Position numbers and translations under genes: made by a program. A stretch of DNA of 58,924 nt from an uncultured Prevotellaceae bacterium. GTDB taxonomy: Bacteria > Bacteroidota > Bacteroidia > Bacteroidales > Bacteroidaceae. The notes beneath the pieces are model-generated. The model was not told the DNA's origin. It searched no databases and worked only from the letters and a program-made list of their open reading frames with translations. Below, one piece after another: positions 56-58,924 of the stretch (within the stretch, counting starts at the first letter, position 1; every line of letters starts with the position of its first letter). Where the stretch lies: assembly GCA_947307015.1 (NCBI GenBank), contig CAMZHV010000013.1, positions 1 through 58,924 of the forward strand, given 5' to 3'.

Positions 56-70
56 AATATTTGTGGTTTA

Positions 71-128
71 GGCCCCCAAGCCCCCTAAAGGGGGTGTGGT
101 TTCTCCCCCTTTAGGGGGCTTGGGGGGC
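71..128. repeat. G/C-rich palindromic repeat, intergenic copy
   Basis: Two hairpins with the core CCCCCTAAAGGGGG or its variant are joined by a short spacer and bounded by inverted gcccccaag / cttggggggc ends. This copy lies between the WbqC-like gene and the partial aminotransferase. Related copies lie inside the two upstream genes. It could act as an mRNA hairpin or attenuator, but no U-tract follows on the coding strand. Confidence 0.8.
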
Positions 129-131
129 GAA

Positions 132-851
132 TTATACAAAATGATAACGGTCCAACATATCGTGTATCTCATCGCGCGAGCAGTACATCATCGTGTCGAT
201 GATGCTCAGGTCGGGGACGAACTCGTCACAGCGCTGCTTGTAGCGGATGTCATCGTTGCGGCGTATAAAGTGGAGGGTGATGCCCATCTCGCTGAACGCA
301 TTCTTGTCGTAGAATTTCGTTCCAGTGATAGAGTTGAGATAGTCGGTACAACCGTTATGCAGACAAGTGCGACGGATAACTTCCGGTGCCTTGCAATCCC
401 AGCGGGCAGACACTTCCGAGAGCAATCTGATTTCTGTCGTGATGCCTATATAATCGGCCACAGTCCTCAGTTGCTTCACGAGATAGCGCGTCAGGTCAGT
501 TTCTTCGTCCATGATGATAGGCCTGATGATTTCCATCGCCTCGTTAAAGTGTGGCGCTTTGCTGTAGTAGTACTCCAACACCCGGCACATCTTATCAGCT
601 CGTTTAAGGTTGACCACACGTTTCGTCTCACAGATGTAGCGGTCTGCGGAAGCATGGCTGACCTCAATGCCGAAGTCCAGCGGTTGGCATCCTTGACCTA
701 AGATTCGGTTGTGGTGTATCCAGCCGTTTTTGATATAGTGGGCATTGTCGCCAACAAAAAACATATCGGCGGCATGGATGACTTGCCAATAGCCGATGTA
801 CGGAAAGAAGTACGGCTGCCAAATGGCAATACATTTTTTTCCATCAATCAT
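132..851 (-). CDS. WbqC-like family protein
   Basis: This 239-residue protein starts with the hallmark CIAIWQPYFFPYIGYWQ segment of the WbqC-like family (PF08889). Members occur in O-antigen, capsule and natural-product loci, and their biochemical role is not settled. A second conserved-looking patch, NGWIHHNRIL, follows near residue 42, and TDYLNSITGTKFYDKN lies in the C-terminal half. The protein is predicted soluble, with no signal peptide or membrane segment. The start codon overlaps the stop of the ATP-grasp-like gene by four bases, indicating translational coupling. The family is sure; the substrate, perhaps an amino-sugar or acyl donor, is unknown. Confidence 0.85.
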   Translation of the reverse strand: MIDGKKCIAIWQPYFFPYIGYWQVIHAADMFFVGDNAHYIKNGWIHHNRILGQGCQPLDFGIEVSHASADRYICETKRVVNLKRADKMCRVLEYYYSKAPHFNEAMEIIRPIIMDEETDLTRYLVKQLRTVADYIGITTEIRLLSEVSARWDCKAPEVIRRTCLHNGCTDYLNSITGTKFYDKNAFSEMGITLHFIRRNDDIRYKQRCDEFVPDLSIIDTMMYCSRDEIHDMLDRYHFV

Positions 852-2407
852 AACACAAAACAGTATTTTTTCAGTTCTTCGTCGTCACTGTGGATGACGC
901 ACATTTTGCGGTCGTCCACCTTGTTGGTCACAGGGGCGCTACTGGTACGAAATACACCGCTATCGAAATAGCGGTCGTCCATACAAAGCATCATGCCACA
1001 CACATACTCGTCGTAATGCTTGCCCTCCCACACGCAGGGATAGGTGCGCTGGTGGATGAAGGGCTGCAAGATATAAGCCCCCCGACCCCCTAAAGGGGGA
1101 GTTGCTGCGCATCCCGTAGGCTCACCCCCTTTAGGGGGTTGGGGGGCCAAGGGCTGGCAGGTTATTATTTTCCTCCACGTTTCCTCATCTGTCATCACAC
1201 CGGCATACAGGCCTACACTCTTGCCAAGGTCGTAGGGCTTGAGAATGTAGTTGTCCTTGTGAATGAGGGCATCCTCCCAAGCCCCCAAGCCCCCTAAAGG
1301 GGGTGTAAGCCCCTCCTGCCCCCTAAAGGGGGTGTCTTGTTGCGCAGCCACTCCCCCTTTAGGGGGGTGGGGGGCTTGTTGGGCCAAATAGGTGGGGATG
1401 GTGTGCTGGCGCAAGAACTTCGTTTCTTCTTCCGTGAGGCATTGGCGGGTGAAGTCATCAACGAAGATGAGGTGCAGGAAGCGCTTGTCGTGAGCCAGAA
1501 AAATGGTGCGGAAGTCGTTCAGCATCCGCGCATCAATCATGGCTTGCAGGGTCTCCATCTGGAAAGACAAGAGATCTTGCTGGTTTAGCGCACTGATTAC
1601 TACGGCATCATGATTCCACTGGTCAATATGCGCTTCTACCTCATCTGCTTCATAAACGGTCACTTCATGTCCGTAGTATTCATAGAACTTCGTGTAGAAG
1701 ACACTCTCGCTACCTCGGTCGCTACTTTTTAACACGTAAATAGGAGCCCCCTGTCCCCCTAAAGGGGGAATGATGTCGCGCATGTAGGTGAGCAGCGAGT
1801 TGTAAGCCCCCCAGCCCCCTGAAGGGGGAGTGGCTGCGCATCTCTTAGCTCCCCCTTTAGGGGGCTGGGGGGCTGAGGGCTGGGGGGCTGAGGGCTGGTG
1901 CTCTGCCATGAACTGCTCTGCCTTGACCACTGAGGGATAGTTGGCCCAGATACCATGCCCGAAAAAGCGGCTGGTTATTTCGACAAACAGCAGTTGCCCG
2001 TCTTCGCTGATGAGATAGTCCGGACGGTAGGCGCCTGCTCGGAAGGGATAGCGACTCTGGCGGTCCAGAATCTCCATCACTTTCTCGTCTAAGGGCATGT
2101 ACAGGGGCACCCACTCGCGGTAGTGCTCCGCCATATTGACGATGCACTTGTAGAGCAGGGCCTGCATACGCCGCAGTTCATCGCGCCGCTCCGAGGTAAT
2201 CAGCATCGGTTTGGAATGATACCAGTGATGGTAGTAGTCGGTCCTGTCAGCAAACAGCTGAAAGCAAACGTCAAGGGGACGAGCCCCCAAGCCCCCTAAA
2301 GGGGGTGTAAGCTCCCCCTGCCCCCTAAAGGGGGTGTCTTGTTGCGCAGCCGCTCCCCCTGTAGGGGGTTGGGGGGCCGAGCGGGGGGCAGGGGGCTGCT
2401 TATTCAT
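848..2407 (-). CDS. ATP-grasp-like protein carrying palindrome inserts
   Basis: This 519-residue cytosolic protein is tentatively an ATP-grasp ligase. The stretch NYILKPYDLGKSVGLY near residues 384-398 resembles the lysine/glycine-rich ATP-binding loop. It is followed by YILQPFIHQRTYPCVWEG and a C-terminal DSGVFRTSS segment resembling the metal-binding strand. The N-terminal half (FRAGAYRPDYLISEDGQLLF) recalls permuted or glutathionylspermidine-synthase-like ligases. At least five Pro/Gly-rich inserts interrupt it: residues about 3-42, 170-200, 214-222, 345-375 and 420-443. Without them it would be roughly 390-400 residues. It overlaps its neighbours by 8 and 4 bases, so the three genes are probably translated together. 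The ligase substrate is unknown. Confidence 0.55.
   Translation of the reverse strand: MNKQPPAPRSAPQPPTGGAAAQQDTPFRGQGELTPPLGGLGARPLDVCFQLFADRTDYYHHWYHSKPMLITSERRDELRRMQALLYKCIVNMAEHYREWVPLYMPLDEKVMEILDRQSRYPFRAGAYRPDYLISEDGQLLFVEITSRFFGHGIWANYPSVVKAEQFMAEHQPSAPQPSAPQPPKGGAKRCAATPPSGGWGAYNSLLTYMRDIIPPLGGQGAPIYVLKSSDRGSESVFYTKFYEYYGHEVTVYEADEVEAHIDQWNHDAVVISALNQQDLLSFQMETLQAMIDARMLNDFRTIFLAHDKRFLHLIFVDDFTRQCLTEEETKFLRQHTIPTYLAQQAPHPPKGGVAAQQDTPFRGQEGLTPPLGGLGAWEDALIHKDNYILKPYDLGKSVGLYAGVMTDEETWRKIITCQPLAPQPPKGGEPTGCAATPPLGGRGAYILQPFIHQRTYPCVWEGKHYDEYVCGMMLCMDDRYFDSGVFRTSSAPVTNKVDDRKMCVIHSDDEELKKYCFVL
1077..1148. repeat. In-frame palindromic repeat in ATP-grasp-like gene
   Basis: Two ACCCCCTAAAGGGGG-type hairpins flank a spacer containing gttgctgcgcatcc. 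It is translated on the minus strand as a PQPPKGG...TPPLGGRGA linker near residue 430. The reading frame stays open through the whole unit. Confidence 0.85.
1281..1375. repeat. In-frame palindromic repeat, three-hairpin form
   Basis: Three CCCCCTAAAGGGGG-type cores are spaced by about 29 bp, with the shared internal spacer gtcttgttgcgcagcc. Translated in the ATP-grasp-like protein it gives PPKGGVAAQQDTPFRGQEG and then TPPLGGLGA. The same three-hairpin composite is found at 2283-2399 and at 3303-3411 in the next gene. Confidence 0.85.
1746..1768. repeat. Single-hairpin copy of the palindromic repeat
   Basis: A single core, GTCCCCCTAAAGGGGGAA, is translated as IIPPLGGQGAP. It looks like a minimal unit of the family and shows that one hairpin can sit in frame alone. 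Confidence 0.75.
1806..1892. repeat. In-frame palindromic repeat with extra direct copies
   Basis: A two-hairpin unit is followed on the plus strand by tandem copies of gagggctggggggct, translated as repeated SAPQP. The extra tandem copies suggest slippage or repeated addition at the repeat edge. Confidence 0.8.
2283..2399. repeat. Palindromic repeat at the start of the ATP-grasp-like gene
   Basis: The three-hairpin composite occupies codons 3-42, directly after the initiation codon at 2407. It encodes a Pro/Gly/Ala/Gln-rich N-terminus containing GGAAAQQDTPFRGQGEL. In the mRNA these hairpins would lie just downstream of the ribosome-binding region. It is close to the insert in the radical SAM gene. 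Confidence 0.85.
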
Positions 2408-3845
2408 TTTTAAACAGTTTTGACTGGTAGCCTAAGCACTGGAATCCGTTGCGGTTGATGATGGGGATGATGCTCGTGGGCACCTGTAGCTGGTTGCGCA
2501 CCCAGAAGCAGATGCTGGTGGACATGCCGATGGTCTCGGTATATTTCATCAGTCGCTGAATATTCTCAATGGAGAGCGCACGGTTGGGGGCGGTGCGTCC
2601 GCGCTGCTTGCGGTGGTCGGCATTCTTCGGGCTGATATAGTCCATATAGAGGTCGCGCTCCATATTTTTGTCGAAGTAGCCGAGCCACTGTCCCAACTGT
2701 GCCAGGTTCTCCATGCAGGCCGTGAGGAACTCCGGCTTATAATTCACGATGCCGGCATCGTGGAGCATGTCGAAGAACTCCTTGATGTGCTCGTCGGTGA
2801 GGTAAGGCACGAAGATGGGCTGCACCAGAGCTGAATTGGCCTGTATGCCACGCTCCTGGCACATCTTCACGGCTGCCAGTCGCTCCTCTATCGGGGCTGC
2901 ATAAGGCTCCAACAAATCGCGGAAGGCTTTGGGCATGATGCTCACCGAGGTGTTGAACTGCATTTTGTCCTTCAACTGCTCGAAGAGGTCGAGGATGGTC
3001 TCGCCCTCGTTCTCCACCAACAGGTGCTTGGTGCCGGCCTTCGAGGCAATGAAGAGACGGGCGTTGCTGTTGGGGTAGCGCTTGAAGTGGTCAATGAACT
3101 CGCGCAGTATGCGGTGGGCAATGCCAGTGTAGAGCGTAGGCTCCTGTAGGGCCTCGGTCTTGGGCGTGAAGTAGTAGTAGTGGTTCCAGTTCTTGCCACG
3201 GCTGAGTTCCACAATCTGCCGCTCTATCTCCTTCTTCTTCTCGGGTGCCTCGACGATGGCCTTGGCCAGTTCATTAAGGAGCCGATTGCGTTCCTTGATA
3301 TCAGCCCCCAAGCCCCCTAAAGGGGGTGTAAGCCCCCCCTGCCCCCTAAAGGGGGTGTTTCGCTGTGCAGCTGCTCCCCCTTTAGGGGGTAGGGGGGCTT
3401 GTTGGGGGGCTTGTACTCCGTTCATCTCCTCCAAGAGTTTGCGCACATAGAGGTGGTAGTTCTCGTAGGCCACTAACTTCTGTTCGTGTACGCCATCAGT
3501 CACCAAGCAGTACTGGCAACCCACGTGACAGCCCTTGATGGGGTTCACCTCGAAGGTCAGTGTCGGACAACGGCCCGTGTAGTTGTGAATCTCGGTCTCC
3601 ACAGTCTCGGGGTCGCAATCCTCTAAGTAAAGCACCGACTTAGGGATGACGGTGTGTTCCTCCAAGCGTTTCATGAACAGTTTAGACCCTCGGATGAGTC
3701 CTTGCAGTGTTTCCTCAGAGGGTTCTATCGTTACGCCGAGCTGTTTCAGGTATTCGGCATCGACAATCTGGGGCTTGAAGCCTTCCAGATTGTAGGCGTC
3801 AGTCTCATGTTCATAGAGATGGCGCATTTCAATGGGTTGTTTCAT
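2400..3845 (-). CDS. Radical SAM protein, spore photoproduct lyase-like
   Basis: This 481-residue cytosolic protein has a CxxxCxxC cluster (Cys106, Cys110, Cys113 in GCHVGCQYC), the iron-sulfur site of radical SAM enzymes. The rest, including FNTSVSIMPKAF and the following EERLAAVKMCQERGI helix, resembles the spore photoproduct lyase-like COG1533 group rather than SPASM maturases. Residues about 144-181 are a palindrome-derived insert (PPKGGAAAQRNTPFRGQGG). It is the first gene of the operon, followed by the ATP-grasp-like and WbqC-like genes with overlaps. Either DNA photoproduct repair or a biosynthetic radical reaction is possible. The linkage favours biosynthesis, but that is inference. 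Confidence 0.75.
   Translation of the reverse strand: MKQPIEMRHLYEHETDAYNLEGFKPQIVDAEYLKQLGVTIEPSEETLQGLIRGSKLFMKRLEEHTVIPKSVLYLEDCDPETVETEIHNYTGRCPTLTFEVNPIKGCHVGCQYCLVTDGVHEQKLVAYENYHLYVRKLLEEMNGVQAPQQAPLPPKGGAAAQRNTPFRGQGGLTPPLGGLGADIKERNRLLNELAKAIVEAPEKKKEIERQIVELSRGKNWNHYYYFTPKTEALQEPTLYTGIAHRILREFIDHFKRYPNSNARLFIASKAGTKHLLVENEGETILDLFEQLKDKMQFNTSVSIMPKAFRDLLEPYAAPIEERLAAVKMCQERGIQANSALVQPIFVPYLTDEHIKEFFDMLHDAGIVNYKPEFLTACMENLAQLGQWLGYFDKNMERDLYMDYISPKNADHRKQRGRTAPNRALSIENIQRLMKYTETIGMSTSICFWVRNQLQVPTSIIPIINRNGFQCLGYQSKLFKNE
3303..3411. repeat. In-frame palindromic repeat in radical SAM gene
   Basis: A three-hairpin unit closely resembles 2283-2399, with the same order of cores and a diverged spacer. 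It is inserted between the Cys cluster domain and the next helix (DIKERNRLL), so the core fold is probably preserved. Confidence 0.85.
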
Positions 3846-3895
3846 TCTTGTGATTTTGGTTTAATTGTTAAATTTATTTTTGTTCGTTTTTATCA

Positions 3896-4054
3896 TTACC
3901 ATTTTAATATGCCTTTTCGTCTCTCTTGAAGAGGGGCTGGCACACATCTCACCGATACCCCAGTTTGTGAGCTTTTTGCTTCGGGGGAGGCATCAGGGGT
4001 AAGCCTAATGCTTGGAGGATTTGTCTCGCCTCTTCGAGTTGTCACATTAGACAA
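3896..4054 (-). pseudogene. N-terminal copy of the upxY-like gene
   Basis: A short open frame with a TTG start at 4054 and stop at 3896 encodes 52 residues. It matches the first 38 or so residues of the intact upxY-like gene at 6200-6868: both have NPPSI, LTPDA, PEAKSSQTGV. By eye the DNA match (about 3940-4075 against 6754-6893) is roughly 80 percent and extends upstream of the start. After residue 40 the sequences diverge and the frame ends. No NusG fold remains. It is either a truncated duplicate or a second copy of a repeat element that supplies the N-terminus. It ends 51 bp before the radical SAM start. Confidence 0.6.
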
Positions 4055-4161
4055 TGTGCTCAAATTAGAATTTCAGAACTCAGAAAATCGAGGGCAAAAA
4101 TACACAAAAAGGCATATTTTTCCAAGCAACAACGCGGAAAAACACATTAAAAATGGGTTTT

Positions 4162-10987: not shown

Positions 10988-13224
10988 CCGACCTGACTAC
11001 CGGGTTTCACTTCACGCTGAGGGGTGATAACGGAAAGGGAACCATCGAAGTTGACGGCGGAGAGAATCATGCCCTGACTCTCCAGGCCCATCATCTTGCG
11101 AGGCGGGAAGTTGGCGATGAAGCACACTTGCTTGCCCACGAGGTCCTCGGGATTGTAGTACTGCGCTATACCACTGAGGATTGTGCGGTTCTCGAGCCCG
11201 TCGGCAATCTCGAACTTGAGGAGCTTGTTGGACTTCTTGACCTTCTCGCAAGAGAGGATCGTACCGACGCGGATGTCGAGCTTCTCGAAGTCGTCAAAAG
11301 TCACTTCCTTCTTCACCTGAGCCCCTTCCCGACCTCCCCCAAGGGGGAGGGGATTTGAAGTTACCTCCGAGGATTGAGTTCTCCCCCCTTGGGGGGAGTT
11401 AGAGGGGGGCTGCTGCTCTCTTTCGTTCTCCTTCTTGATGCGGGCCAGACGATCCATCTGTGCCTGAATGGCCTCATCCTCAATCTTCTCGAAGAGGAGA
11501 GAGGGTGTACCCAACTGATGTCCGGCAGGCAGAAGGTCAATAGAGCCAAGGCGGTCCCAAGTGAGAGAAAGCTCTGCGCCAGCCTTCTCCCCTCCATTAC
11601 GGGAGGGGTCGGGGGTGGGTCTTAACATCTGATAGAGCTTCTTCGATGAGAACGGCAGGAACGGCTCGAAGGCGATGGCGAGGTTGGCAGTCAGCTGGAG
11701 CGAGATATTGATGATGGTCTTCACGCGCTCGGGGTCGGTCTTGATGACCTTCCAAGGCTCGCTGTCGGCCAGGTATTTGTTGCCGATGCGCGCCAAGTTC
11801 ATTGCTTCCTTCTGTGCGTCGCGGAACTTGAAGTTGTCGAGCAAGGCTTCCACCTTGGCCTTCACGTCCTTGAACTCAGCGATGGTCTGACGGTCGAAAT
11901 CGGTCAGCTCGCCGCAGGCAGGCACTACACCTTCGTAGTATTTCTGCGTCAGCTGCAGGGCGCGGTTCACAAAGTTGCCATAGACGGCCACCAACTCGTT
12001 GTTGTTGCGTGCCTGGAACTCCGCCCACGTGAAATCGTTGTCCTTGGTTTCGGGAGCCGAGGCGGTGAGGGCATAGCGCAGCACGTCCTGCTTGCCGGGG
12101 AAATCCACGAGGTACTCGTGCAGCCAGACAGCCCAGTTGCGTGACGTGGAGATCTTGTCGCCTTCGAGGTTCAGGAACTCGTTGGCCGGCACATTGTCGG
12201 GCATGATATAATCGCCGTGTGCTTTCATCATCACGGGGAAAATGATGCAGTGGAAAACAATATTATCTTTGCCGATGAAATGGACTAATCTTGTCTCCTC
12301 GTCCTGCCACCAGCGCTGCCACGTGCCCCAGCGTTCGGGGTTGCTTTCGCACAGCTCCTTGGTGTTCGAAATATAGCCGATGGGCGCGTCGAACCACACA
12401 TAGAGTACCTTGCCATCGGCACCTTCGACGGGCACGGGGATGCCCCAGTCCAAGTCGCGCGTCATGGCACGCGGCTGCAGCTCCATATCCAGCCAACTCT
12501 TGCATTGACCATAGACATTCGAGCGCCATTCCTTGTGGCCTTCGAGAATCCACTCTTTGAGCCAACCCTCGTAGTCGTTGAGGGGCAGGAACCAGTTGGT
12601 GGTGTCTTTGAGGATGAGCTTGGCACCGCTTTCCTTCGAGCGAGGGTTGATGAGCTCCGTGGGGTCGAGATCACGACCGCATTTCTCGCACTGGTCACCA
12701 TTGGCTTCGTTGTGGCAATGCGGACATTCGCCGACAATGTCACGGTCGGTCTTGAACGTGCCTGTCGTCTCGTCGTAGAACTGCTTCGTGGTCTTTTCGA
12801 TGAGTTTGCCGTCGTCGTAGAGCTTGCGGAAGAAGTCGCTGGCAAATTGGTGGTGTGTCTTGCTCGTCGTGCGGCTATAGACGTCGAATGAGATGCCAAA
12901 CTCCTCGAATGAGTCCTTGATCATCTTGTGGTAGCGGTCGACGACCTGCTGCGGGGTGATGCCCTCTTTGCGGGCGCGCTGCGTCACGGGCACGCCGTGC
13001 TCATCGGAGCCGCCGATAAACATCACCTCCTCACCTTTCAGCCGCAGGTACCTCACATATATGTCCGCAGGCACATACACGCCTGCCAAGTGTCCGATAT
13101 GCACGCCGCCATTAGCGTATGGCAGGGCGGATGTGACTGTTGTGCGCTTAAAAGCCCCTTCCCGGCCTCCCCCAAGGGGGAGGGGATTGGAAGTTACCTC
13201 TGTAGATTGTTGCTGATTATTCAT
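10984..13224 (-). CDS. metG: Methionyl-tRNA synthetase with palindrome-derived inserts
   Basis: This 746-residue cytosolic enzyme charges tRNA-Met. HIGH (residues 42-45) and the KMSKS-type KISTS are present, as is a CPHCHNE...CEKCGRD zinc knuckle near residues 163-182. The C-terminal EMAP/Trbp111 tRNA-binding domain begins at [13 protein letters not shown]. Three inserts are non-native: residues 10-24 ([13 protein letters not shown]) just before the catalytic domain, a [17 protein letters not shown] linker near 535-548, and a double unit near 606-635 joining the tRNA-binding domain. The N-terminal and C-terminal copies are almost identical in DNA. Genes overlap at both ends (CE15-like downstream, DUF559 upstream). 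Confidence 0.97.
11321..11410. repeat. In-frame palindromic repeats in metG, C-terminal linker
   Basis: Two hairpins are present, CCTCCCCCAAGGGGGAGG and CTCCCCCCTTGGGGGGAG. They encode NSPQGG and [13 protein letters not shown] between the anticodon-binding region and the tRNA-binding domain. The first half is nearly identical to 13153-13200. Confidence 0.85.
11583..11622. repeat. In-frame palindromic repeat in metG, second family
   Basis: The core CCCCTCCATTACGGGAGGGG has flanks ccttct and tcgggggtggg. It is translated as [15 protein letters not shown]. The same family is in typA (15405-15443) and yfhO (18763-18874). Confidence 0.85.
13153..13200. repeat. In-frame palindromic repeat at the metG N-terminus
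   Basis: Codons 8-24 come from a CCTCCCCCAAGGGGGAGG unit. Conventional MetG starts immediately before the [14 protein letters not shown] segment, so the first 24 residues are repeat-derived or adjacent to the repeat. Confidence 0.85.
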
Positions 13225-13592
13225 ATTTGTTCTTTTATGGTCTTTAGTACATTTTCTATATCGTTAAGCACCTCTTCATTGGAGAATCTAATCACTTTAT
13301 ATCCTAATTGATTAAGCCTTTTTGTCCGCTCCTCATCACTGATGTTTTGCTCAGGGAGTTGGTGGTAACCACCATCAACCTCAACAACCAGTTTACTCGG
13401 CAAACAGAAGAAATCTGCAATATAGCAATCAATGATATGTTGCCTTCTGAAAGGGATTCCTAACTGGGCTTTCTTCAGATGCTCCCACAAGACGCGTTCT
13501 GCCAAGGTTGAATTGCGCTTGTTCTTCTGCGCCAATTGCTTTAATAATCCATAGTAAAATGGATCTGATGTAGCGTAGTCGTAATCGCTCAT
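13221..13592 (-). CDS. DUF559 (Vsr-like) endonuclease-fold protein
   Basis: This 123-residue protein belongs to the DUF559 family, related to very-short-patch-repair endonucleases. Visible features are the N-terminal [20 protein letters not shown], then [17 protein letters not shown], and the core [11 protein letters not shown] with Asp/Glu positions of a PD-(D/E)XK-like site. The C-terminal [20 protein letters not shown] is also characteristic. It is cytosolic and its biological role is unknown. Its stop overlaps the metG start by four bases, suggesting coupling. DUF559 genes often appear as single, mobile-looking insertions next to housekeeping genes. Confidence 0.85.
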
Positions 13593-13615
13593 TCTTCGTG
13601 CAAGTGGGAACGAAT

Positions 13616-13647
13616 CCCTCCCCCTTGGGGGAGCAGGGAGGGGGCTT
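13616..13647. repeat. Intergenic palindromic repeat
   Basis: CCCTCCCCCTTGGGGGAG with a gcagggagggggc flank sits directly after the metallopeptidase stop. It belongs to the metG/yfhO repeat family and may double as a 3'-end hairpin for the metallopeptidase transcript. Confidence 0.8.
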
Positions 13648-14532
13648 TTATAGCTGACTCTCGCTGATGCTAAAAGTGTCGCCGCGGCTCATGTCGCCGG
13701 TGTTGAGGCCGAGTTTCAGCCATTTCATGCGTTGTGCCGAGGTGCCGTGGGTGAAGCTTTCGGGCTGCGAGTAGCCACGGGCTTTCTCCTGGAGGTAGTT
13801 GTCGCCGATGACCTGCGCACACTGGATTGCTTCCTGCAGGTCGCCATCTTCGAGCGAGCCGAAGGTCTTGCCCTCGTGGTAGCCCCATACGCCGGCGTAG
13901 AAGTCGGCCTGCAGCTCGATGCGCACGCTGACCTTATTGGCCTGTGTCTCATTCATCTTGGCCATTTGGGCGTGAGCGCTGTTGAGGGTGCCGAGGAGGT
14001 GCTGCACGTGGTGACCTACCTCATGGGCGATGACGTAAGCGTAGGCGAAATCGCCGTCAGCACCTAATGTCCGCTTCATGTCGGAGAAGAAGCTGAGGTC
14101 TATGTAAAGCGCTTGGTCTGCAGAGCAGTAGAAAGGACCGACCTGCGCATTGCCTGCGCCGCAACCCGTCTGCACGCTACCTGTGTAGAGCACCATCTTG
14201 GGGGGCACATACTCCCTGCCGAGCTGTGTTCTGAACACTTCGCTCCACACATCCTCGGTGCTGGCAAGCACCTGTGAGGCAAAGAGCGCGAGCTGTTGCT
14301 CTTCCTCGGTGAACTCACGATCCTGCTGGGCGCTGGTCGTGACATTCTGGTTGGTGATGGCTTCGAGGCCACCGGCCTGCTGGAAAGCCTGAAATACGTC
14401 GCCGCCTGAGAGCCAAGCCATCAGACAAGCGATGATTACGCCTGCGAGGCCGCCGATGCCGGCCTTCGTCGTTCCGCTCATGCGCCGACGGTCATCGACA
14501 TTCGAGCTTTGTCTTCTTCCTGTTAAATCCAT
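13648..14532 (-). CDS. Neutral zinc metallopeptidase, YpfJ family
   Basis: This 294-residue protein of the putative neutral zinc metallopeptidase family (PF04228) has a single N-terminal membrane helix near residues 24-42. The zinc site HEVGH spans 170-174. The downstream ELQADFYAGVWG provides the glutamate ligand, and VGPFYCSADQALYIDLSFF is a family signature. Length is as expected. The protease domain would face the periplasm. It is flanked on both sides by intergenic palindromic repeats. The physiological substrate is unknown. Confidence 0.9.
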   Translation of the reverse strand: MDLTGRRQSSNVDDRRRMSGTTKAGIGGLAGVIIACLMAWLSGGDVFQAFQQAGGLEAITNQNVTTSAQQDREFTEEEQQLALFASQVLASTEDVWSEVFRTQLGREYVPPKMVLYTGSVQTGCGAGNAQVGPFYCSADQALYIDLSFFSDMKRTLGADGDFAYAYVIAHEVGHHVQHLLGTLNSAHAQMAKMNETQANKVSVRIELQADFYAGVWGYHEGKTFGSLEDGDLQEAIQCAQVIGDNYLQEKARGYSQPESFTHGTSAQRMKWLKLGLNTGDMSRGDTFSISESQL

Positions 14533-14546: not shown

Positions 14547-14692
14547 ACTCTCCCCCCGCCCTCCCTGTTAGGGAGGAAGCAGAATCATTTGCTATTGGAG
14601 GTCTGAGCCATTGGTTAAGGGTTAAAAGATATGTTTATTTTATTCTTGACAAGTAATCGCCCCCTCCCTAACAGGGAGGGCGGGGGGAGAGT
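14547..14692. repeat. Long inverted pair of palindromic repeats
   Basis: The arm at 14547-14575 (ACTCTCCCCCCGCCCTCCCT...) and its complement at 14663-14692 are about 29 bp, nearly perfect, and 87 bp apart. Each arm contains its own CCTCCCTGTTAGGGAGG hairpin. Together they could fold as one large cruciform between typA and the metallopeptidase gene. Confidence 0.85.
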
Positions 14693-14715: not shown

Positions 14716-16617
14716 TTATTCCCTATTCGCCCTCTTCCTTTCCAGATGGTCGAGGATAATCTTTCTCATTCTCATGCTCTTGGGCGTCACCTCTACATAT
14801 TCGTCCTCCTTGATGTATTCGAGGGCTTCTTCGAGGCTGAGGATGGTGGCAGGAATGATGCGGGCTTTCTCGTCGGAGCCGCTGGCTCGCATGTTGGTGA
14901 GTTGCTTGTTCTTCGTCACGTTGATGACGAGGTCATTCTCATGAATGTGCTCGCCCACGACCTGTCCGGCATAAACTTCGGTCTGTGGCTCGATGAAGAA
15001 TTTGCCGCGGTCCTGCAGGTTGTTGATGGCGTAGGCAAAAGCCGTGCCGCCCTCGAGGGCTATCATGGAGCCAGAGATGCGTCGTACAATATCACCCTTG
15101 TACGGCTGGTATTCTTTGTAACGGTGTGCCATGATGGCTTCGCCCTGCGAGGCTGTGAGGACGTTGGTTCTCAAGCCGATGATGCCGCGCGAAGGGATGA
15201 GGAATTCGATGTTCACGCGGTCGCCCTGTGCATCCATTGATGTCATCTCGCCCTTGCGGCGCGTGACCATATCAATCATCTTCGATGCAAACTCCTCGGG
15301 GACGTTAATCGTCAGTTCCTCGATGGGCTCATATCGTTCCAGACCCTCTCCCCGCTCCCCCATCAGGGGGAGAGCCTCGCTATCGCTCGAAAGCTGCGCG
15401 CCAGCCTTCTCCCCTCCCTGACGGGAGGGGTTGGGGGTGGGTCTGTACTTATAAATCACTTGCGGCTGTCCCACCTGTAGCTCGTAACCCTCACGTCGCA
15501 TCGTCTCGATGAGCACGGAGAGGTGTAGCACGCCGCGTCCGCTGACGATCCAGCGGTCGGTATAGCCTTCGGGAACCTCCACGCGCAGTGCCAGGTTCTT
15601 CTCCAGCTCCTTCATCAAGCGTTCGTGGATGTGGCGGCTCGTACACCAGCGTCCCTCCTTGCCGAAGAAAGGCGAATCGTTGATGGTGAAGAGCATAGAC
15701 ATCGTAGGCTCATCGATGGAGATGGTGGGCAGCGCCTCCGGTTCCTCGGCATCGCAGATGGTATCGCCGATTTCGAAGTTCGACAGGCCGATGATGGCAC
15801 AGATATCGCCGCTCGACACGGCATCAATCTTCTGATGACCCATACCCGTGAAGGTGTGGAGCTCCTTGATCTTCGTTTTCTCCTTCGAACCGTCGCGGTG
15901 AACGATGGTGATGGCCATGCCTTCCTTCAGCGTGCCGCGGTGTACGCGTCCCACGGCAATGCGCCCCGTATAGGTCGAGTAGTCGAGGGAGGTGATGAGC
16001 ATCTGCGGTGTGCCTTCAAGCTGCTCAGGAGCGGGGATATGCTCGAGAATCTGATCGAGCAGATAGAAAATATCGTTTGTCGGCGTCTGCCAGTCCTCGC
16101 CCATCCAGCCCTGCTTGGCCGAGCCATAGATGACGGGAAAATCCAGCTGATCCTCGGTCGCATCCAGCTCGCACATCAGGTCGAACACCATCTCATGCAC
16201 CTCTTCGGGACGGCAGTTGGGCTTGTCCACTTTGTTGATGACCACGATGGGTTTCAGCCCGATCTGCAATGCTTTCTGGAGCACGAAGCGCGTCTGGGGC
16301 ATCGGACCCTCGAAGGCGTCGACGAGCAGCAGGCAGCCGTCGGCCATATTCAGCACGCGTTCCACCTCGCCGCCGAAGTCGGAGTGACCCGGAGTGTCGA
16401 TGATATTGATTTTCGTTCCTTTATAGTTAATGCTGACGTTCTTGGAGAGGATGGTGATACCACGCTCGCGCTCCAACTCGTTGTTGTCCAGCATCAGCTC
16501 ACCCGTCTGCTGATTCTCGCGGAAGAGGTTTCCTGCCAACAGCATCTTATCCACGAGCGTTGTCTTGCCGTGGTCGACGTGTGCGATGATGGCGATATTC
16601 CTGATGTCTTGTTTCAT
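14716..16617 (-). CDS. typA: GTP-binding protein TypA/BipA
   Basis: This 633-residue ribosome-associated translational GTPase is involved in ribosome assembly and stress adaptation. The P-loop is [10 protein letters not shown] near residues 12-21, followed by [25 protein letters not shown] and [12 protein letters not shown]. The C-terminal [19 protein letters not shown] is typical of BipA. A palindrome-derived insert ([17 protein letters not shown]... to about residue 425) lies between YKYR and YEPIEEL, at the domain boundary before the EF-G-like domain V. The native protein is about 600 residues, so the insert accounts for the excess. Confidence 0.96.
15342..15443. repeat. In-frame composite palindromic repeat in typA
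   Basis: Two hairpins are present, ctccccctgatgggg-type at 15346-15372 and CCCCTCCCTGACGGGAGGGG at 15411-15430, joined by a 38-bp spacer. The spacer ctcgaaagctgcgcgccagc resembles that of the metG insert. Confidence 0.85.
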
Positions 16618-17228: not shown

Positions 17229-17258
17229 GCCCCCTCCCGCCTCCCCCATGGGGGAGGT
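17229..17258. repeat. Palindromic repeat after rpsO
   Basis: CCTCCCCCATGGGGGAGG lies a few bases after the stop codon, in the same family as the metG and yfhO inserts. Confidence 0.75.
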
Positions 17259-17361: not shown

Positions 17362-20196
17362 ATGAATCACAACGAACAAGTCTCTGGGGTAACTTCCAAG
17401 CCCTCCCCCCTTGGGGGGAGATGGTGGGGGGCTTTCCTCCCTGACCTTTTAGCCATCCTCTTCTTTGTTGGCCTCTCGTTTGCCTATTTCATCCATCCCG
17501 TCAGCGAGGGTTTGGTGCTGACTGGTCACGACCACAGCGGCGGTGCAGGTGCGGCCTCTGAGATGGAAGCCTATCGCAAGAGCCACGACGGCGAGCGCAC
17601 ACGCTGGACCAACACTCTTTTCTCGGGTATGCCGACCTACCAAATGGCACCCTCGTATCCCTCCACCGACAAACTGACGAAGGTCGAGAACGTCTACAAA
17701 CTGTGGCTGCCCGATTATGTTGTTCTCGTCTTTGTGATGCTCCTTGGCTTCTACATTCTCCTGCGCGCCTTCGACTTCAAGGCGTGGATGGCCGCCCTCG
17801 GCGCCGTGATGTGGGCCTTTTCGAGCTATTATTTTATTATTATAGGTGCAGGTCACATCTGGAAGTTCTACACGCTGGCCTATATCCCACCCACGATAGC
17901 CGGTATGGTCCTCTGCTACCGCGGTCGCTATGGCTGGGGTTTGCTCGTCACATCTGTATTTATGGCGCTGCAAATCCTTTCTAACCATGTGCAGATGACC
18001 TACTACTTCGCTTTCGTCATCGCGCTGATGGCGCTGGCTTTCCTAATGGACAATGGACAATGGACAATGGAAAATGAAACAGGCGAGCAAGGTCGACAAT
18101 CCGGAGGCAATTGTCAATTGTCCATTGTCCATTGTCAATTTACAAAGTGGCTAAAAGCCACCCTTACCTTCGCCCTCGGCTGCCTCATTGGCATCGCCAT
18201 CAACGCCTCCAACCTCTACCATACCTGGGAGTACTCCAAGGAGAGTATGCGCGGGAAGAGCGAGTTGACGCAGCAGACGAAGGATCCGACAGATCAGACT
18301 TCCAGCGGGCTTGAGCGCAGCTACATCACGGCGTGGAGCTACGGCATCGGAGAGACCTGGTCGCTGCTCGTGCCGAATGTCAAGGGCGGTGCTTCGCTGC
18401 CTCTGACGCAAAACAAGACAGCGATGGACAAGGCCAACCCGACCTATATGCCCGTCTATCAGAGCCTCGGACAGTACTGGGGCGAGCAACCCGGCACGAG
18501 CGGTGCTGTCTATGTCGGCGCTTTCGTGATGTTCCTCTTCATTCTCGGCCTTTTCATCGTAAAAGGCCCGATGAAATGGGCGCTTTTCATCGCTACGTTA
18601 CTTTCTATCACTCTGGCATGGGGTAAGAACTTCATGCCTTGGACAGACTTCTGGTTAGATTATGTGCCGATGTACGATAAGTTCCGCACCGTTGCCTCCA
18701 TCCTCGTCATCGCCGAGTTCACCATTCCGCTCTTGGCAATGATGGCGCTGAAGGAAATTCTAAGACCCACCCCCGACCCCTCCCGTCAGGGAGGGGAGGG
18801 GCTGCGCAATATTAATAATTCCCAACAAGCCGGATGGCTCCCCTCCCTGACGGGAGGGGTCCGGGGGTGGGTCTGTGCTTTTGCCTTAACTGCCCTTCCT
18901 TGTTTATTGTTCTGGCTCATTCCAGATGTCTTCTTTGGCAACTACATCAGCTCTTCGGAGTCGCAGATGTTGACCAGTGCTGCGCAGCAGGGTTATATCC
19001 CGCAGGAGATGTTGGCACCTATCATGGCCAACCTCAATGAGATGCGCCGCGCCGTTTTTTCTGCCGATGCAGGACGTTCGCTGCTCATCATCCTTGTAGG
19101 CTGTGCCGTTCTCCTCGTGTACCATTTTAAAAAGATCAAGGCGTGGGCCGCGGTGGGCTGCCTCATCGTGCTTTGCACCGCCGATTTGTGGGACGTCAAC
19201 AAGCGTTATCTCAACGACTCGATGTTCAGCGCCCCGCAGCCCGCACAGCAGTTCTTCTCCAAGACGCCGACCGACGAGGCTATCCTACAGGACAAGGATC
19301 TCTACTACCGTGTCGCGAACCTCGCTGTCTCGACTTTCAACGACAACACTACCAGCTACTGGCACAAGAGCATCGGCGGTTATCATGCTGCCAAACTGCG
19401 CCGCTATCAGGAGCTCATCGAAGCTTATATCCAGCCCGAACTTATGGAGCTGTTCCAGGCCGTCAGTACCACGGGCGGGCAGCTTGACAGCATCAACGGC
19501 GATTCCCTCTTCCCCGTGCTGAACATGCTGAACATGAAGTATGCCATTGTTCCCTTGCAGGGTGGACAGACGGCACCTGTGCAGAACCCGTGGGCCATGG
19601 GTAACGCTTGGTTCGTCGATGATGTTCTTTTGGCAGATAATGCCGACGAGGAATTAGCAGCACTCGGAGCTATCAATCCACGCAATACGGCCATTGTTGA
19701 TCGTCAATTCACGGAACAACTCCCAAGCCCCCTCCCAAGCCCCCTCCCAGCCTCCCCCAAGGGGGAGGAGCCCCGAACTAATGACGGGCAAGGGAATTTA
19801 ACTGAACCATCAGCCTTAGAGCCCTCCCCCCTTGGGGGGAGCCGGAAGGGGGCTTTGTCTCTAAAGTCTTACGAAGCCAACGCCTTGACCTTTGAGGCCG
19901 AGACGGATGTTGAGCGCCTTGCTGTCTTCTCGGATGTCTACTATCCCGGTTGGCAATGCACCATCGACGGTGAACCCGCTGAGATCTTGCGTGCCGACTA
20001 CATTCTGCGTGCTGTCGTCATCCCGGCAGGCAAGCACACGATAGCCTTCCGTTTCGACCCGCAGAGTTTACACACCACTGAGGCCTTGGCCAACACCGCC
20101 CTCATCCTCCTTGCTCTTCTCCTCGTTGCCCTCCTGGTCTATTCGTTCTGGCGCAACAAAAAAGCCGTTAGGCCTGAGCCCAACGGCGAGAAATGA
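17362..20196 (+). CDS. YfhO-family polytopic membrane protein with repeat inserts
   Basis: This 944-residue inner-membrane protein of the YfhO type may be a GT-C-like glycosyltransferase or lipid-modifying protein. The many hydrophobic segments include ILFFVGLSFAYFIHP near the N-terminus and a final helix (LILLALLLVALLVYSFW). The periplasmic C-terminal domain carries VFSDVYYPGWQCTIDGEPAE, a family hallmark. The ATG at 17362 was chosen over an upstream start because the latter would lie within the rpsO terminator hairpin. Four inserts from at least three repeat families interrupt it: near residues 12-25, 229-260, 468-505 and 787-832. All stay in frame and fall in loops. Confidence 0.85.
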   Translation: MNHNEQVSGVTSKPSPLGGRWWGAFLPDLLAILFFVGLSFAYFIHPVSEGLVLTGHDHSGGAGAASEMEAYRKSHDGERTRWTNTLFSGMPTYQMAPSYPSTDKLTKVENVYKLWLPDYVVLVFVMLLGFYILLRAFDFKAWMAALGAVMWAFSSYYFIIIGAGHIWKFYTLAYIPPTIAGMVLCYRGRYGWGLLVTSVFMALQILSNHVQMTYYFAFVIALMALAFLMDNGQWTMENETGEQGRQSGGNCQLSIVHCQFTKWLKATLTFALGCLIGIAINASNLYHTWEYSKESMRGKSELTQQTKDPTDQTSSGLERSYITAWSYGIGETWSLLVPNVKGGASLPLTQNKTAMDKANPTYMPVYQSLGQYWGEQPGTSGAVYVGAFVMFLFILGLFIVKGPMKWALFIATLLSITLAWGKNFMPWTDFWLDYVPMYDKFRTVASILVIAEFTIPLLAMMALKEILRPTPDPSRQGGEGLRNINNSQQAGWLPSLTGGVRGWVCAFALTALPCLLFWLIPDVFFGNYISSSESQMLTSAAQQGYIPQEMLAPIMANLNEMRRAVFSADAGRSLLIILVGCAVLLVYHFKKIKAWAAVGCLIVLCTADLWDVNKRYLNDSMFSAPQPAQQFFSKTPTDEAILQDKDLYYRVANLAVSTFNDNTTSYWHKSIGGYHAAKLRRYQELIEAYIQPELMELFQAVSTTGGQLDSINGDSLFPVLNMLNMKYAIVPLQGGQTAPVQNPWAMGNAWFVDDVLLADNADEELAALGAINPRNTAIVDRQFTEQLPSPLPSPLPASPKGEEPRTNDGQGNLTEPSALEPSPLGGSRKGALSLKSYEANALTFEAETDVERLAVFSDVYYPGWQCTIDGEPAEILRADYILRAVVIPAGKHTIAFRFDPQSLHTTEALANTALILLALLLVALLVYSFWRNKKAVRPEPNGEK
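17396..17436. repeat. In-frame palindromic repeat at the yfhO N-terminus
   Basis: CTCCCCCCTTGGGGGGAG encodes SKPSPLGGRWWGA directly ahead of the first membrane helix. It parallels the metG and ATP-grasp N-terminal inserts. Confidence 0.85.
18046..18141. repeat. Different in-frame inverted repeat in yfhO (ATGGACA family)
   Basis: Three tandem ATGGACA copies on the left arm (18046-18071) and inverted tgtccat copies on the right arm (18112-18138) give MDNGQWTMENE and CQLSIVHCQF. The loop is about 40 bp. The sequence is unrelated to the G/C-rich family but is also in frame and in a loop between membrane helices. Confidence 0.8.
18763..18874. repeat. In-frame paired palindromes in yfhO
   Basis: CCCCTCCCGTCAGGGAGGGG and CCCCTCCCTGACGGGAGGGG face each other across 40 bp, with outer flanks agacccaccccc and gggggtgggtct also inverted. 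Translation gives [14 protein letters not shown] and SLTGGVRGWVCA. Confidence 0.85.
19721..19857. repeat. In-frame paired palindromes in the yfhO periplasmic domain
   Basis: A tandemly duplicated ccaagccccctcc precedes CTCCCCCAAGGGGGAG. A CCCCCCTTGGGGGG hairpin follows after about 60 bp. Translation is PSPLPSPLPASPKGEE and PSPLGGSRKGAL. Confidence 0.85.
20155..20187 (-). terminator. Terminator for the leftward CotH gene
   Basis: GCCGTT (20164-20169) pairs with AACGGC (20182-20187). The A-run at 20157-20163 becomes a U-tract after the stem on the minus strand. It lies within the last codons of the yfhO-like gene, so the convergent genes share this sequence. Confidence 0.6.
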
Positions 20197-38477: not shown

Positions 38478-41400
38478 TCAATTATTGACGAATCTGTGGA
38501 GGATCTCAATGGGGTGTACGGCTTTGACGCCGGTGCCATCGAGAATCTGCTGTCGACAGGATGTGCCGGGTGCGGCGACGAACGTGGGAAACGATGTCTC
38601 GTTTTTAACTTTTCCCCTTTCAATCTCCCTGATTCTTGGGAACAGCACCATCTCGCCGATGGCGAGGGACGTCTTGTAGTGTTCCTTTTCGTAGCCGAAG
38701 GAGCCCGCCATGCCGCAACAACCGCTGGGAATAACATGCACCTTGGCATTCAGCAACTGGCGCAAAACCTCTGCCATCACCTCAACAGCCACCAGTGCCT
38801 TCTGATGGCAATGGCCATGCAAAAAGATCTCTATGGGCGTCTGGTCAAAAGCGTCTCGGCGGATATGTCCGGCCTTGATTTCCCGCAGCAGGAATTCATC
38901 GAACAGCAGGCTGTGTCGGCCCAACTCCTGAGCTTCACTCCTCTGTGAGGCGGGTACCAAGTCGGGGTATTCGTCTCGGAAAGAAAGGATGCATGAGGGT
39001 TCGATACCTACCAAGGGATGCTCCTCCGTTACCAAGCCTTCCAACATACGTACATTCTGATTGGCCAACTGTTTGGCCCGCTTCAGGCAGCCTTTTGAGA
39101 TAGCTGCCCGACCGCTCTCCCGATGTTTGGGGATTCGGATGGCATAGCCCAAAGAGGTCAGCAGGCTCATAAATGCCTCTGCCAATTCAGGTTCGTGGTT
39201 ACGGGTAAATTCGTCCAAGAAAAACCAGACAGACTTCTCGCTCACGATGTCCGATGCACGGTATTTGAAGGTTTTCAGTCTTGGCAGATCTCTTTCTTCT
39301 GCAAAACCGATGACTTTTTTTATGAGAGAGGCAGTAGGCTTAAACGAAACGAAGAAGTTATAGATTGGGCGTACATGTTGGGCTATCGCCTCCATTTGAG
39401 CTGTCCTTGCTACCAACCATGTGCGCAATGGTGTTCCATGCAGGTCATGCTCCTGTTGCAGCAGTTCTGCTCGGATGCGTGTCAAGTCAACGTTCGACGG
39501 GCATTCGCCGCGGCAGCCCTTGCAGGCCAGGCAGGAGTCGAGGACTTCTTTGATGAGTGAGAAGTCGCCGCCGCGCGTCAGGACTTCACGGATGACATTG
39601 GCACGGGCACGGGTGGTTTTGAGTTCATCGCCACTGACTTTGAAGGCAGGGCATAGGGTGCCGCCGATGACGTTCGACTTGCGGCAATCGCCTGCGCCGT
39701 TGCACTGCTCGATAGAGCATATCAGCGCGTGTGTCTGCGATTTGGCACCCGTGGCTCCGGGCGCATCACACTCGTCGAAGGCTGCCTTCCAGTTATAATA
39801 AGGTTGAAAGTTTAAAGTTGAAGGTTTAAAGGCAGACGACGTAGCTGGTTGTTTCTCTATAGCATACTGCTGGTTCTCGTCGAAGCGCAGCATAGAGTCC
39901 ATGGGCAAGGTATCTACTATCTTATGGCGGTTCAGCAGTCCTTCGGGATCCCAGCACTTCTTCAACTGTCGCATCAGTTCGTAGGTCTCATCGCCGTAGA
40001 GTAGGGGGATGAACTCCCCACGCAAGCGACCGTCGCCATGTTCGCCACTGATGGTGCCACGATGTTTCTTCACCAACAATGCGGTTTGATAAGCCACCTC
40101 GCGGAACAGCTCGCGTCCTTCGCGCGTCTTCAGGTTGATGATGGGTCGCAGGTGCAGTTCGCCTGTGCTGATATGTCCATAGAACACGCACTTGGCTCCT
40201 AACCTGTCGAGCATGGCTCGGAAATCCTTCATATAGGCGGGCATCCGTCGCGGCGCCACTGCTGTATCTTCAATCACACCCATTGGCTTGGCATCACCTT
40301 TCATGCCGCTGAGAATACCTAAGCCAGCTTTGCGCAGGTTCCATACTTTGGAGACATCCGCGCCATACACGCGCGTACATTTATATATAAGGCCGCTCGC
40401 AAGCAAATCCTGCTCCAGCGCATCGGCCTTGCGATCAAGTTCCTGGCGTGTCTCAGCTCTTAGTTCTGTGATGAGCAACGCTGCGGGGTCGCCATCTACG
40501 AAGAAACGATTTTTCTGCTGCTCGGCATTACCCTTGCTCAGTTCCAGAATGTCGCCATCCATTAGCTCTATGGCTGTCGGCTCATGGCGCAGTGCCACGA
40601 GGTTGCCCTCGAAGCTCTTCATCAGGTCATCGCAATGTCCGCACACCACCATGATCTCCTTCGGTGGCAGCGGATCGAGGCTTACGGTAATCTCTGTGAT
40701 GAACGCCAAAGTCCCTTCACTGCCAGCGAGGAGCTTGCAGAGGTCAATGGCCTCACCCCCGGCCCCTCTCCCATGGGAGAGGGGAGTCTGAAAATTGAGC
40801 GTGAGGCTTTCGTCTATTGCATAACCGCAACTCCTACGGTTCAATTCTTTATCGGGATAGTTCTCCTCAATAAACCGCCTTGTCGTCACGTCCTTAGACC
40901 AGTTGATCAGCTGTGAGTAGATCCGTTCTATCAGCAATTCATGCTTGTCACGCTTCCAGAACGCCTTCCCAAATCGATCTTCTAATTCCTGGACTTGATA
41001 ACTTTTGAACTCTTCAACGCTTCCGTCTGTCAGGATGCCTTTGCAGGCGATCACATGATGGCGTGTGCTGCCATAGACGAGGGAATGTGTGCCGCATGAA
41101 TTATTGCCGAACATACCACCGATGCAGCAGCGGTTGCTCGTTGAGGTCTCAGGGCTGAAGAACAGACCGTATGGTTTCAGTGCGATATTCAACTCATCCC
41201 TGACAACGCCCGGCTGTACCCTGGCCCAACGCTCCTCGGTATTGATCTCAAGAATCTTGTTCCAATGCTTACTGATGTCCGCCACGATACCGCTGCCTAC
41301 GACTTGTCCGGCTATTGATGTCCCGCCTGCCCTCGGTATCAGGTCCACACCTTTCTCTTTGGCCAGCTGCATCAATGACCGCACATCGTCTACCGTTTCA

Positions 41401-58336: not shown

Positions 58337-58924
58337 CTAAAGCGCTTCGAGCATCCGCTTGAGGACGACCTGTGCGGAGATCTCGCGGTTGGCAGCTTCG
58401 GGAATGACGAGGCTGCGGGGCGACTCGATGACGTCGTCGGTGACAATCATGTTGCGGCGCACGGGCAGGCAGTGGAGGAAGGCGGCGTTATTGGTGACAG
58501 CCATCTGGCGTGCGCTGACGCACCAGTCCATCATGGTGTGGTAGTCATGCAGCACCTTGCCGTAGTCTTCGGGGCGTGTGACACCTGGGCAACTCCAGTT
58601 CTTGGCGTAGACGAAGTCGGCACCCTCAAAAGCTTTCATCTGATCATATTCTACACGGGCACCCTTGACGAACTGCGGGTCGAGCTCGTAGCCTTCGGGG
58701 TGAGTGATGACGAAATCAATAGAAGCCTCTCCCCCGTCCCCTCTCCCGAGAGAGAGGGGAGACTTGGCAGCGGCAATCATCCATTCGGCGAAGGAATTAG
58801 GTACGGCCTGCGGAAGTGCCTTGGGATGGGGTGCCCAGGTCATGACAACCTTGATGGACTTTCCCCACTCAGACTCTCCCCCCGAACCAGTCCAGCCGGA
58901 ACACTTAATAGTTCCGTCTTCCTG
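58337..58924 (-). CDS. argF': N-acetyl/N-succinyl-ornithine carbamoyltransferase, C-terminal part
   Basis: This carbamoyltransferase of the Bacteroidetes arginine pathway acts on acylated ornithine. About 195 residues are visible and the N-terminus is outside the window. The motif FLHCLPVRRNMIVTDDVIES includes the catalytic HCLP. IPEAANREISAQVVLKRML ends the protein, as in Bacteroides fragilis ArgF'. Upstream of the ATG at 58843 the frame stays open to the edge with KSIKVVMTWAPHPKALPQAV, so 58843 is not the start. A palindrome insert (SPLSLGRGDGGEA) interrupts it. Confidence 0.88.
   Translation of the reverse strand, partial: QEDGTIKCSGWTGSGGESEWGKSIKVVMTWAPHPKALPQAVPNSFAEWMIAAAKSPLSLGRGDGGEASIDFVITHPEGYELDPQFVKGARVEYDQMKAFEGADFVYAKNWSCPGVTRPEDYGKVLHDYHTMMDWCVSARQMAVTNNAAFLHCLPVRRNMIVTDDVIESPRSLVIPEAANREISAQVVLKRMLEAL
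58723..58764. repeat. In-frame palindromic repeat in the carbamoyltransferase gene
   Basis: CCCCTCTCCCGAGAGAGAGGGG with flanking ctcccccgt is translated as SPLSLGRGDGGEAS. A further fragment, actctccccccgaacc (about 58872-58887), encodes GSGGESE upstream in the same gene. Confidence 0.8.

Follow-up and report, generated by a model that had tools for sequence, protein, structure and literature searches.

G/C-rich palindromes within genes of an uncultured Prevotellaceae bacterium are associated with DUF559 nuclease genes

Introduction

What are the G/C-rich palindromes that are read in frame within intact genes of an uncultured Prevotellaceae bacterium, and by what agent are they spread? The question was raised by a stretch of 58,924 nt, here called the window, which is contig C13 (CAMZHV010000013.1) of a genome of 2.99 Mb in 94 contigs (GCA_947307015.1). 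In the window, 18 G/C-rich palindromic elements were counted and 14 of them were found inside reading frames that stay open, as the first-pass annotation of the window had described; its statement that the same families also lie between genes was borne out by family A at 73-127 and by other families in intergenic positions (the family names A, F1, F2 and F3 were coined in the present analysis). Genes of the DUF559 family (PF04480) were found to be associated with such palindromes and to be carried as cargo in frame within host genes. On balance, the palindromes are probably the ends, with or without cargo, of hairpin-ended homing-type DUF559 elements whose survival in genes depends on keeping the reading frame.

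Bacterial genomes commonly contain palindromic repeats, some families of which lack a known mobilising enzyme, and DUF559 is still listed in Pfam as a family of unknown function. The host bacterium is probably of gut origin; the closest relative of its metG was found in a metagenome-assembled genome from water buffalo rumen.

Results

Inverted repeats on both sides of DUF559 genes

The DUF559 open reading frame (ORF) of the window (13221-13592, minus strand) was found to have a palindrome on each side, the two having an exact inverted repeat of 18 nt in common, and DUF559 alone was found between these ends. Its stop codon overlaps the start codon of metG (13221-13224), and the palindrome at 13153-13209 is read as the N-terminus of MetG, where it encodes an 11-residue peptide. 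At a distance of 1.8 kb from this element, metG was found to contain an insert (11320-11413) in which both end types are joined without the nuclease. Its first part (11320-11376) is 91% identical to 13153-13209, followed by a second part (11377-11413) of the same repeat family (D7) as 13613-13649.

PF04480 was found by profile search in 68 of 101 same-genus genomes. The flanks of 70 same-genus loci and of the window, containing 72 domains, were compared, and for 68 of the domains both flanks extended to 250 nt. The window element is counted twice in this set (also as L173). Of the 70 loci, 30 were the best-scoring ones and 40 were hand-chosen, with preference given to long frames, F1-rich genomes and the genome of the window. 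A locus was taken as bracketed where an exact inverted repeat of at least 12 nt was present within 250 nt on each side. By this measure 51 of the 68 DUF559 loci were bracketed (mean longest repeat 19.4 nt) versus none of 65 at 650-900 nt (mean 7.8 nt), and ordinary ORFs of the sampled genome under the same treatment were bracketed in 6 of 260 cases. The longest inverted repeats were found to measure 36-63 nt, taking in the outermost motif in several cases.

Across the phylum, PF04480 was present in 138 of 247 genomes, and 8 of the 29 usable loci among the 30 best-scoring were bracketed versus none of 27 distant controls. A match to PF04480 was found in 37 plasmid records, and in the ten that were taken (Alphaproteobacteria, Cyanobacteriota and Deinococcota) six loci were bracketed versus none of ten controls. 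In Deinococcus psychrotolerans, a perfect 45-nt pair was found to bracket the DUF559 gene between paaD and paaZ. Such a position of a bracketed DUF559 gene, flanked by genes of a single operon, was found in other phyla at L305 (paaD-paaZ) and at L308 (genes of NAD(P) transhydrogenase subunits).

Families and motif of the ends

The DUF559 copies on contigs C4, C80 and C22 of the window genome were found to be alike, all starting with WAASDR, and to contain F1 ends with the inner GGCTGGCGC/GCGCCAGCC motif (on one side only in C22). The copy on C31 starts with YKTSSP and has ends of the TTGTA-loop type. Both kinds of end match many nuclease-less copies in the sampled genome, the sample of 398,924 nt being the window and 17 stretches of 20 kb of the same genome. 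Among 71 nucleases, in pairs with unrelated outer flanks, the sharing of end 8-mers was found to rise with nuclease similarity (rho 0.17, none of 300 permutations as high), with rho 0.06 in the distant flanks used as control.

The outer motif [AG]G[AC]C[CT]C was found at the left end of 36, at the right end of 32, at both ends of 20 and at one end or more of 48 of the 56 elements, versus 1, 2 and 0 of 56 controls for left, right and both. In typA, the insert at 15340-15444 was found to contain halves of two families joined, with the termini AGACCC...GGGTCT kept. The palindromes had been described at first as several unrelated families behaving alike; with a shared terminal motif and a shared DUF559, they are better read as one architecture.

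DUF559 in frame within host genes

The site 1078-1146 of ORF 848-2407 could be parsed in 106 of 120 listed homologues, and a whole in-frame DUF559 ORF was found in 11 of these, a palindrome only in 7, another insert of more than 12 residues in 68 and a short linker in 20. These classes come from a crude pattern, and among 14 inserts of the class 'other' that were printed about 10 looked to be of a heptad type and at least two (P0022 and P0030) looked palindromic. In the homologues P0005-P0010 the site was found to contain one half of the palindrome, DUF559 and the other half (for example LAPQPPKGG ... TPPLGGRGAYI), and in the window and P0001 the same halves were found with seven residues between them.

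In a census of the genus, counted by eye, 31 of 150 listed DUF559 rows were in open frames of at least 250 aa. By Pfam, DUF559 was found fused with MiaB domains, NAD epimerase, guanylate kinase (Gmk), an aconitase-family protein, PurD, GcpE/IspG and iPGM; by reading, the aconitase-family protein was identified as LeuC, and LeuRS, MetH, HsdR and a UvrD-like protein were recognised as further hosts. In the eight host fusions scanned, none of the Pfam matches was a splicing domain. The MiaB query gave some match in 101 of 101 genomes, in a few of them perhaps through its DUF559 part alone or through paralogues, and among the matches listed only that of G097 was full length. The best MiaB orthologue (G069, protein 96% identical) was found to contain 21 nt in place of the nuclease of G097, and this stretch holds a small palindrome of another kind. 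The DUF559-Gmk fusion was found in at least 9 of 137 genomes with a match; DUF559 was missing from the Gmk proteins of G073 and G012, which are 88% identical to the query, and present in those of G047 and G046 (74% identical).

In a quick tree of 103 nucleases, drawn from few columns and with many forks unresolved, the seven host-gene groups were found to need 6 changes, which is the minimum and was not reached by any of 200 shuffles, and the genome labels were found to need 30. Grouping of the nucleases by genome was not seen, same-genome pairs being 54.0% and others 52.8% identical. The occurrence of DUF559 is patchy and site-specific, with kin at the same site, which fits homing.

Relationship of the nuclease

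A profile of 29 DUF559 domains was found to match the PDB entries 3hrl (E 1.6e-27) and 3r3p (E 5e-9), and the DUF559 protein of the window alone matched 3r3p at E 1e-6. With its predicted model (pLDDT 83.2, pTM 0.78), Foldseek gave 3r3p at E 7e-5, and 3r3p and 3hrl were the only matches at E <=0.001. The entry 3r3p is named by Foldseek as the catalytic domain of the homing endonuclease I-Bth0305I; Vsr of E. coli (1vsr) was a weaker fold match, ranking below 3r3p and NGO0050 (3hrl). DUF559 is related to the EDxHD homing endonuclease I-Bth0305I by sequence and predicted fold. The residues E32, D60, E71, D73, H77 and D86 were invariant in the 29 domains and 98-100% conserved in 100; they form a putative active site and may have a catalytic role.

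Filled and empty sites in relatives

The same-genus genomes G099 and G086 align over window positions 1-3932 (blocks 83-94% identical), and the family A palindrome was found in them at none of the six sites, genic or intergenic. At 1078-1146 both were found to contain instead a ATTGACAATTGA-type heptad repeat, at 2275-2395 G099 contained a CTTCACT-type heptad, and at 3305-3409 both contained a short plain linker. Both internal metG inserts were missing from 80 of 80 orthologues and the N-terminal insert of metG from the 11 relatives printed, and the typA orthologue of L048 was without the insert. Two observations count against a view of the inserts as all new: P0001 (93% identical) was found to have the same inserts as the protein of ORF 848-2407, and at the mid site of yfhO a like palindrome-coded peptide was found in two of the six homologues printed (P0122 and P0125), with a plain linker in P0131 and a different palindrome-coded peptide in P0123 and P0124.

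The palindromes are largely recent insertions, though not all new, and the host-protein loops resemble permissive hot spots in which inserts turn over, not ancestral linkers. The comparison with orthologues that the first-pass annotation had suggested thus gave many empty sites along with shared inserts in P0001 and some yfhO homologues, and the idea of ancestral linkers common to all orthologues was contradicted by the empty sites.

A second class of in-frame repeats, the heptad type (GGACAAT / ATTGTCC, coding NGQWTMEN...CQLSIVHCQF), was observed at window positions 18052-18141 (yfhO residues 253-282) and in L027, L028, P0011, P0014 and P0124. Its loops are the permissive ones that hold G/C palindromes in other species.

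Reading frame and tolerance of genes

The survey of the 399 kb sample gave 57 elements, 56 of which were used for the frame count, and an open frame of at least 150 nt on both sides was found for 28 of the 56 versus 70% of random placements (p 0.002). Genes are tolerated and not preferred, the elements being mildly depleted in them. Since half of the elements lie in genes versus 70% at random, the in-frame copies are read as a residue of selection and not as a preference; most simply, they would be its survivors. A survey inside and outside genes had been called for earlier, with the suggestion of an element selected for a translated frame: tolerance of coding regions was found, but a preference for them was not.

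Inventory of the window

The features of the window are listed in Table 1. Five palindromic inserts were found within 1077-3411, four in ORF 848-2407 (minus strand) and one in the radical SAM ORF 2400-3845 (minus strand, match to PF04055); with one intergenic site they are the six sites of family A, all in the first 3.4 kb. The family A core CCCCCTTTAGGGGG was found at 16 exact places in the whole genome (2.99 Mb); window positions 81-3389 hold 14 of these, and the reversed core, used as control, was found at none. Family A, crowded into 3.3 kb of a genome of about 3 Mb, may have spread locally. The protein of ORF 848-2407, labelled earlier as ATP-grasp, was matched by no Pfam family, and its homologues carry the precomputed label PF28486.

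Further families, namely F1 (ACCCACCCCCGACCCCTCCC...), F2, F3 and the CCTCCCCCAAGGGGGAGG type, were found between genes and in metG, typA, yfhO and the genes of the FAD-linked oxidase and the carbamoyltransferase, each of which contains one or more in-frame hairpins. Outside any long ORF were 4 of the 18 elements (73-127, 13613-13649, 14660-14687 and 17230-17257). In the 398,924 nt sampled, 84 G/C-rich hairpins were found versus 28 in one 60-nt block shuffle.

Two other repeats were seen in the window: a direct repeat of 168 nt, 82% identical (3937-4104 and 6751-6918), and three tandem copies of a 22-nt TCGTTGTTCGGCCATGGCCGAA-type unit (57469-57534).

Table 1. Palindromic elements, host ORFs and nuclease gene of the window
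Feature	Position	Strand	Basis or remark
Family A palindrome pair, intergenic	73..127		Absent in G099 and G086
Host ORF of four family A inserts	848..2407	-	Homologues labelled PF28486
Family A pair; same site holds whole DUF559 ORF in 11 homologues	1078..1146		Homologue comparison
Family A insert, in frame	1282..1397		Absent in G099 and G086
Family A inserts, in frame	1747..1887		Absent in G099 and G086
Family A insert, near N-terminus of 848-2407 protein	2275..2395		Absent in G099 and G086
Radical SAM host ORF	2400..3845	-	PF04055
Family A insert, in frame, in radical SAM ORF	3305..3409		Absent in G099 and G086
Nuclease-less copy in metG, two end types joined	11320..11413		Absent in 80/80 orthologues
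F1-family half element in metG	11575..11623		Absent in 80/80 orthologues
Nuclease-bearing element, DUF559 ORF with a hairpin end on either side	13153..13649	-	Exact 18-nt inverted repeat; D6/D7 repeats
Hairpin end of nuclease-bearing element, read in metG frame	13153..13209		Absent in 11 orthologues printed
DUF559 (PF04480) nuclease gene	13221..13592	-	PF04480 E 3.3e-34; 3r3p E 1e-6
Other hairpin end of nuclease-bearing element, intergenic	13613..13649		Inverted repeat with 13153-13209 end
Hairpin, intergenic	14660..14687		Hairpin search
typA insert, F1 half and half of another family	15340..15444		Absent in L048
Hairpin upstream of yfhO	17230..17257		Hairpin search
yfhO N-terminal insert, in frame	17388..17434		Hairpin search, homologue comparison
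yfhO insert, complete F1 pair	18762..18873		F1 family match
yfhO insert near C-terminus	19736..19855		Homologue comparison
FAD-linked oxidase insert, single hairpin	40748..40798		Hairpin in open frame
Carbamoyltransferase insert, in frame	58697..58759		Hairpin in open frame

Discussion

Proposed course of insertion

An element of the proposed kind would consist of two G/C-rich hairpin ends in inverted orientation, which have [AG]G[AC]C[CT]C as their outer motif and between which a DUF559 ORF may be present or absent. The nuclease would likely cut DNA, followed by the copying in of the element during repair, and it may recognise either the hairpin ends or the empty allele. The nuclease-less copies may derive from nuclease-bearing ones; insertions out of frame would be lost and in-frame copies would remain, and the fusions of DUF559 with host proteins would be translated.

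A wider claim is offered more tentatively, at somewhat less than even confidence. The elements may represent a new class of bacterial mobile element, an EDxHD/DUF559 gene between hairpin ends that spreads in frame without an intron, intein or transposase; its nuclease would be made within LeuRS, MetH, Gmk, IspG and MiaB, and its nuclease-less remains would be many of the G/C palindromes in Bacteroidota, Deinococcota, Cyanobacteriota and Alphaproteobacteria.

Cleavage and movement by DUF559 are proposed here from sequence comparison, and several points weigh against DUF559 as the mobilising agent. A repeat of 12 nt was not found at 17 of the 68 same-genus loci, two of the six DUF559 copies of the window genome fall short of this length (C22 with 11 nt and C1 with 6 nt), only 8 of the 29 best-scoring loci reach it across the phylum, and 40 of the 70 same-genus loci were hand-chosen. 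The presence of DUF559 had no significant tie to F1 abundance (9 of 10 F1-rich versus 59 of 91 genomes, p 0.16), and genome-level co-occurrence was dropped as support. In a search for DUF559 remnants near the 57 sampled elements, the only matches were at both ends of the element in the window and no intermediate was seen, and family A is tied to the DUF559 element at the protein level only. A target-site duplication was not read at any site, the empty sites best suited to this being too diverged. DUF559 and Gmk were found to diverge at similar rates, and an old insertion followed by repeated loss would also give the grouping by host gene.

Alternative explanations

The chief alternative, which is less probable but has a real chance of being right, is that the palindromes are moved by another agent and that DUF559 is a second parasite, homing into palindrome pairs as a landing platform. 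In P0003 and P0013, a complete palindrome pair was found to be followed by DUF559 and then by a half, an order that would arise from entry of the nuclease into a cluster of palindromes. Genome G018 contains 27 F1 copies and DUF559 was not found in it (the genome is 80% complete), which counts against the preferred reading as well, and the lack of DUF559 remnants in nuclease-less elements points the same way. Against a landing platform, nuclease similarity is linked with end family also in pairs with unrelated outer flanks, and the inverted repeats of 36-63 nt that include the outermost motif in several cases are as expected of element ends. No other mobilising agent was found, the transposase considered below being rejected.

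Local template switching during replication, by which palindromes would be copied nearby with no dedicated enzyme, is improbable. It would suit the 14 of 16 exact family A cores within 3.3 kb and the 15 of 57 elements whose best match lay in their own stretch (shuffled mean 6.1, highest value 14 in 300 shuffles); without family A, however, such clustering fell to 9 of 51 and lost significance (mean of the shuffles 4.2, highest value 13), and general local clustering of the families was not upheld. F1 is spread across many contigs, and the bracketing of DUF559 would be left unexplained.

Movement as repetitive extragenic palindromic (REP) or REPIN-type repeats by a REP-associated tyrosine transposase (RAYT, Y1) is very unlikely. 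The paired inverted hairpins in many copies and the one Y1_Tnp gene of the genome would be in keeping with it, but strong Y1 matches were found in 2 of 10 F1-rich versus 15 of 91 other genomes, and the inverted repeats beside Y1 loci were found to be ones of their own that differ from these families (TAGCCAGCCATTTCAATGGCTGGT in L017). An open frame holds half of the elements, whereas REPs are described as mainly extragenic (PMC3116915). Mobility of the RAYT/REP kind was thus not supported by the PF01797 search in 101 genomes and the flanks of ten Y1 loci, and of the first-pass idea of a selfish or REP-like element the selfish, coding-tolerant part held in direction, given the empty sites, and REP in the RAYT sense was not supported. 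Among the Y1_Tnp loci of the genus (L017, which is G000:C32:18081-18422, and nine others), 7 of 10 were found to have a flanking inverted repeat of at least 12 nt within 350 nt.

Least probable of all is an explanation by ancient linkers that selection has preserved, or by assembly artefacts, which the Pro/Gly-rich peptides in variable loops, the inserts common to some close homologues and the 94 contigs of the genome might suggest, and which is already contradicted by the empty orthologous sites and opposed by the same families between genes and the same architecture in other genomes and phyla.

Significance

By tying G/C palindromes to DUF559, the probable hairpin-ended elements would give a role to a nuclease family and a candidate engine to the palindromes. 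If true, a nuclease gene can live in core genes without splicing, its in-frame product being tolerated as a linker or domain; LeuRS, MetH and guanylate kinase would have natural nuclease fusions, and some unexplained insertions in annotated proteins would be mobile DNA. In the open-licence literature, judged for palindromes by titles and abstracts, no account linking DUF559 to palindromes or inverted repeats was found, and an earlier description elsewhere is possible.

Comparison with known systems

Miniature inverted-repeat transposable elements are likewise short, with inverted ends and a presumed autonomous partner, but the partner here encodes a nuclease and no transposase, and no target-site duplication was read, the best empty sites being too diverged. 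Rickettsia palindromic elements belong to other organisms and probably have other sequences than the elements described here, and none is known to bear a nuclease. The parallel with them, drawn at the first pass, held in direction as regards in-frame insertion in unrelated genes: they are palindromic, of about 100-150 nt, and lie in frame in unrelated metabolic genes (PMC10969869).

DUF559 is described as Vsr-like (PMC12907096); the DUF559 copies here differ from Vsr in lying between hairpins and inside genes, and the match to 1vsr was the weaker one. With REPs and REPINs and their RAYT, the elements have in common paired inverted palindromes in many copies, some beside a presumed mobiliser gene (PMC3116915 and PMC3733652), and differ from them by a PD-(D/E)XK-type nuclease in place of Y1, by another end motif and by the half that lie in open frames; for the CGTC-type REP, a REP survey gives no known mobilising enzyme (PMC3733652). 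From inteins they differ by host fusions without a protein-splicing domain in the eight scanned by Pfam. The I-Bth0305I type (3R3P) resembles the DUF559 elements in related sequence and predicted fold and in patchy, host-gene-specific occurrence, whereas the elements described here contain no intron or intein around the nuclease, are bounded by hairpin ends, include nuclease-less copies and occupy several unrelated host genes per genus.

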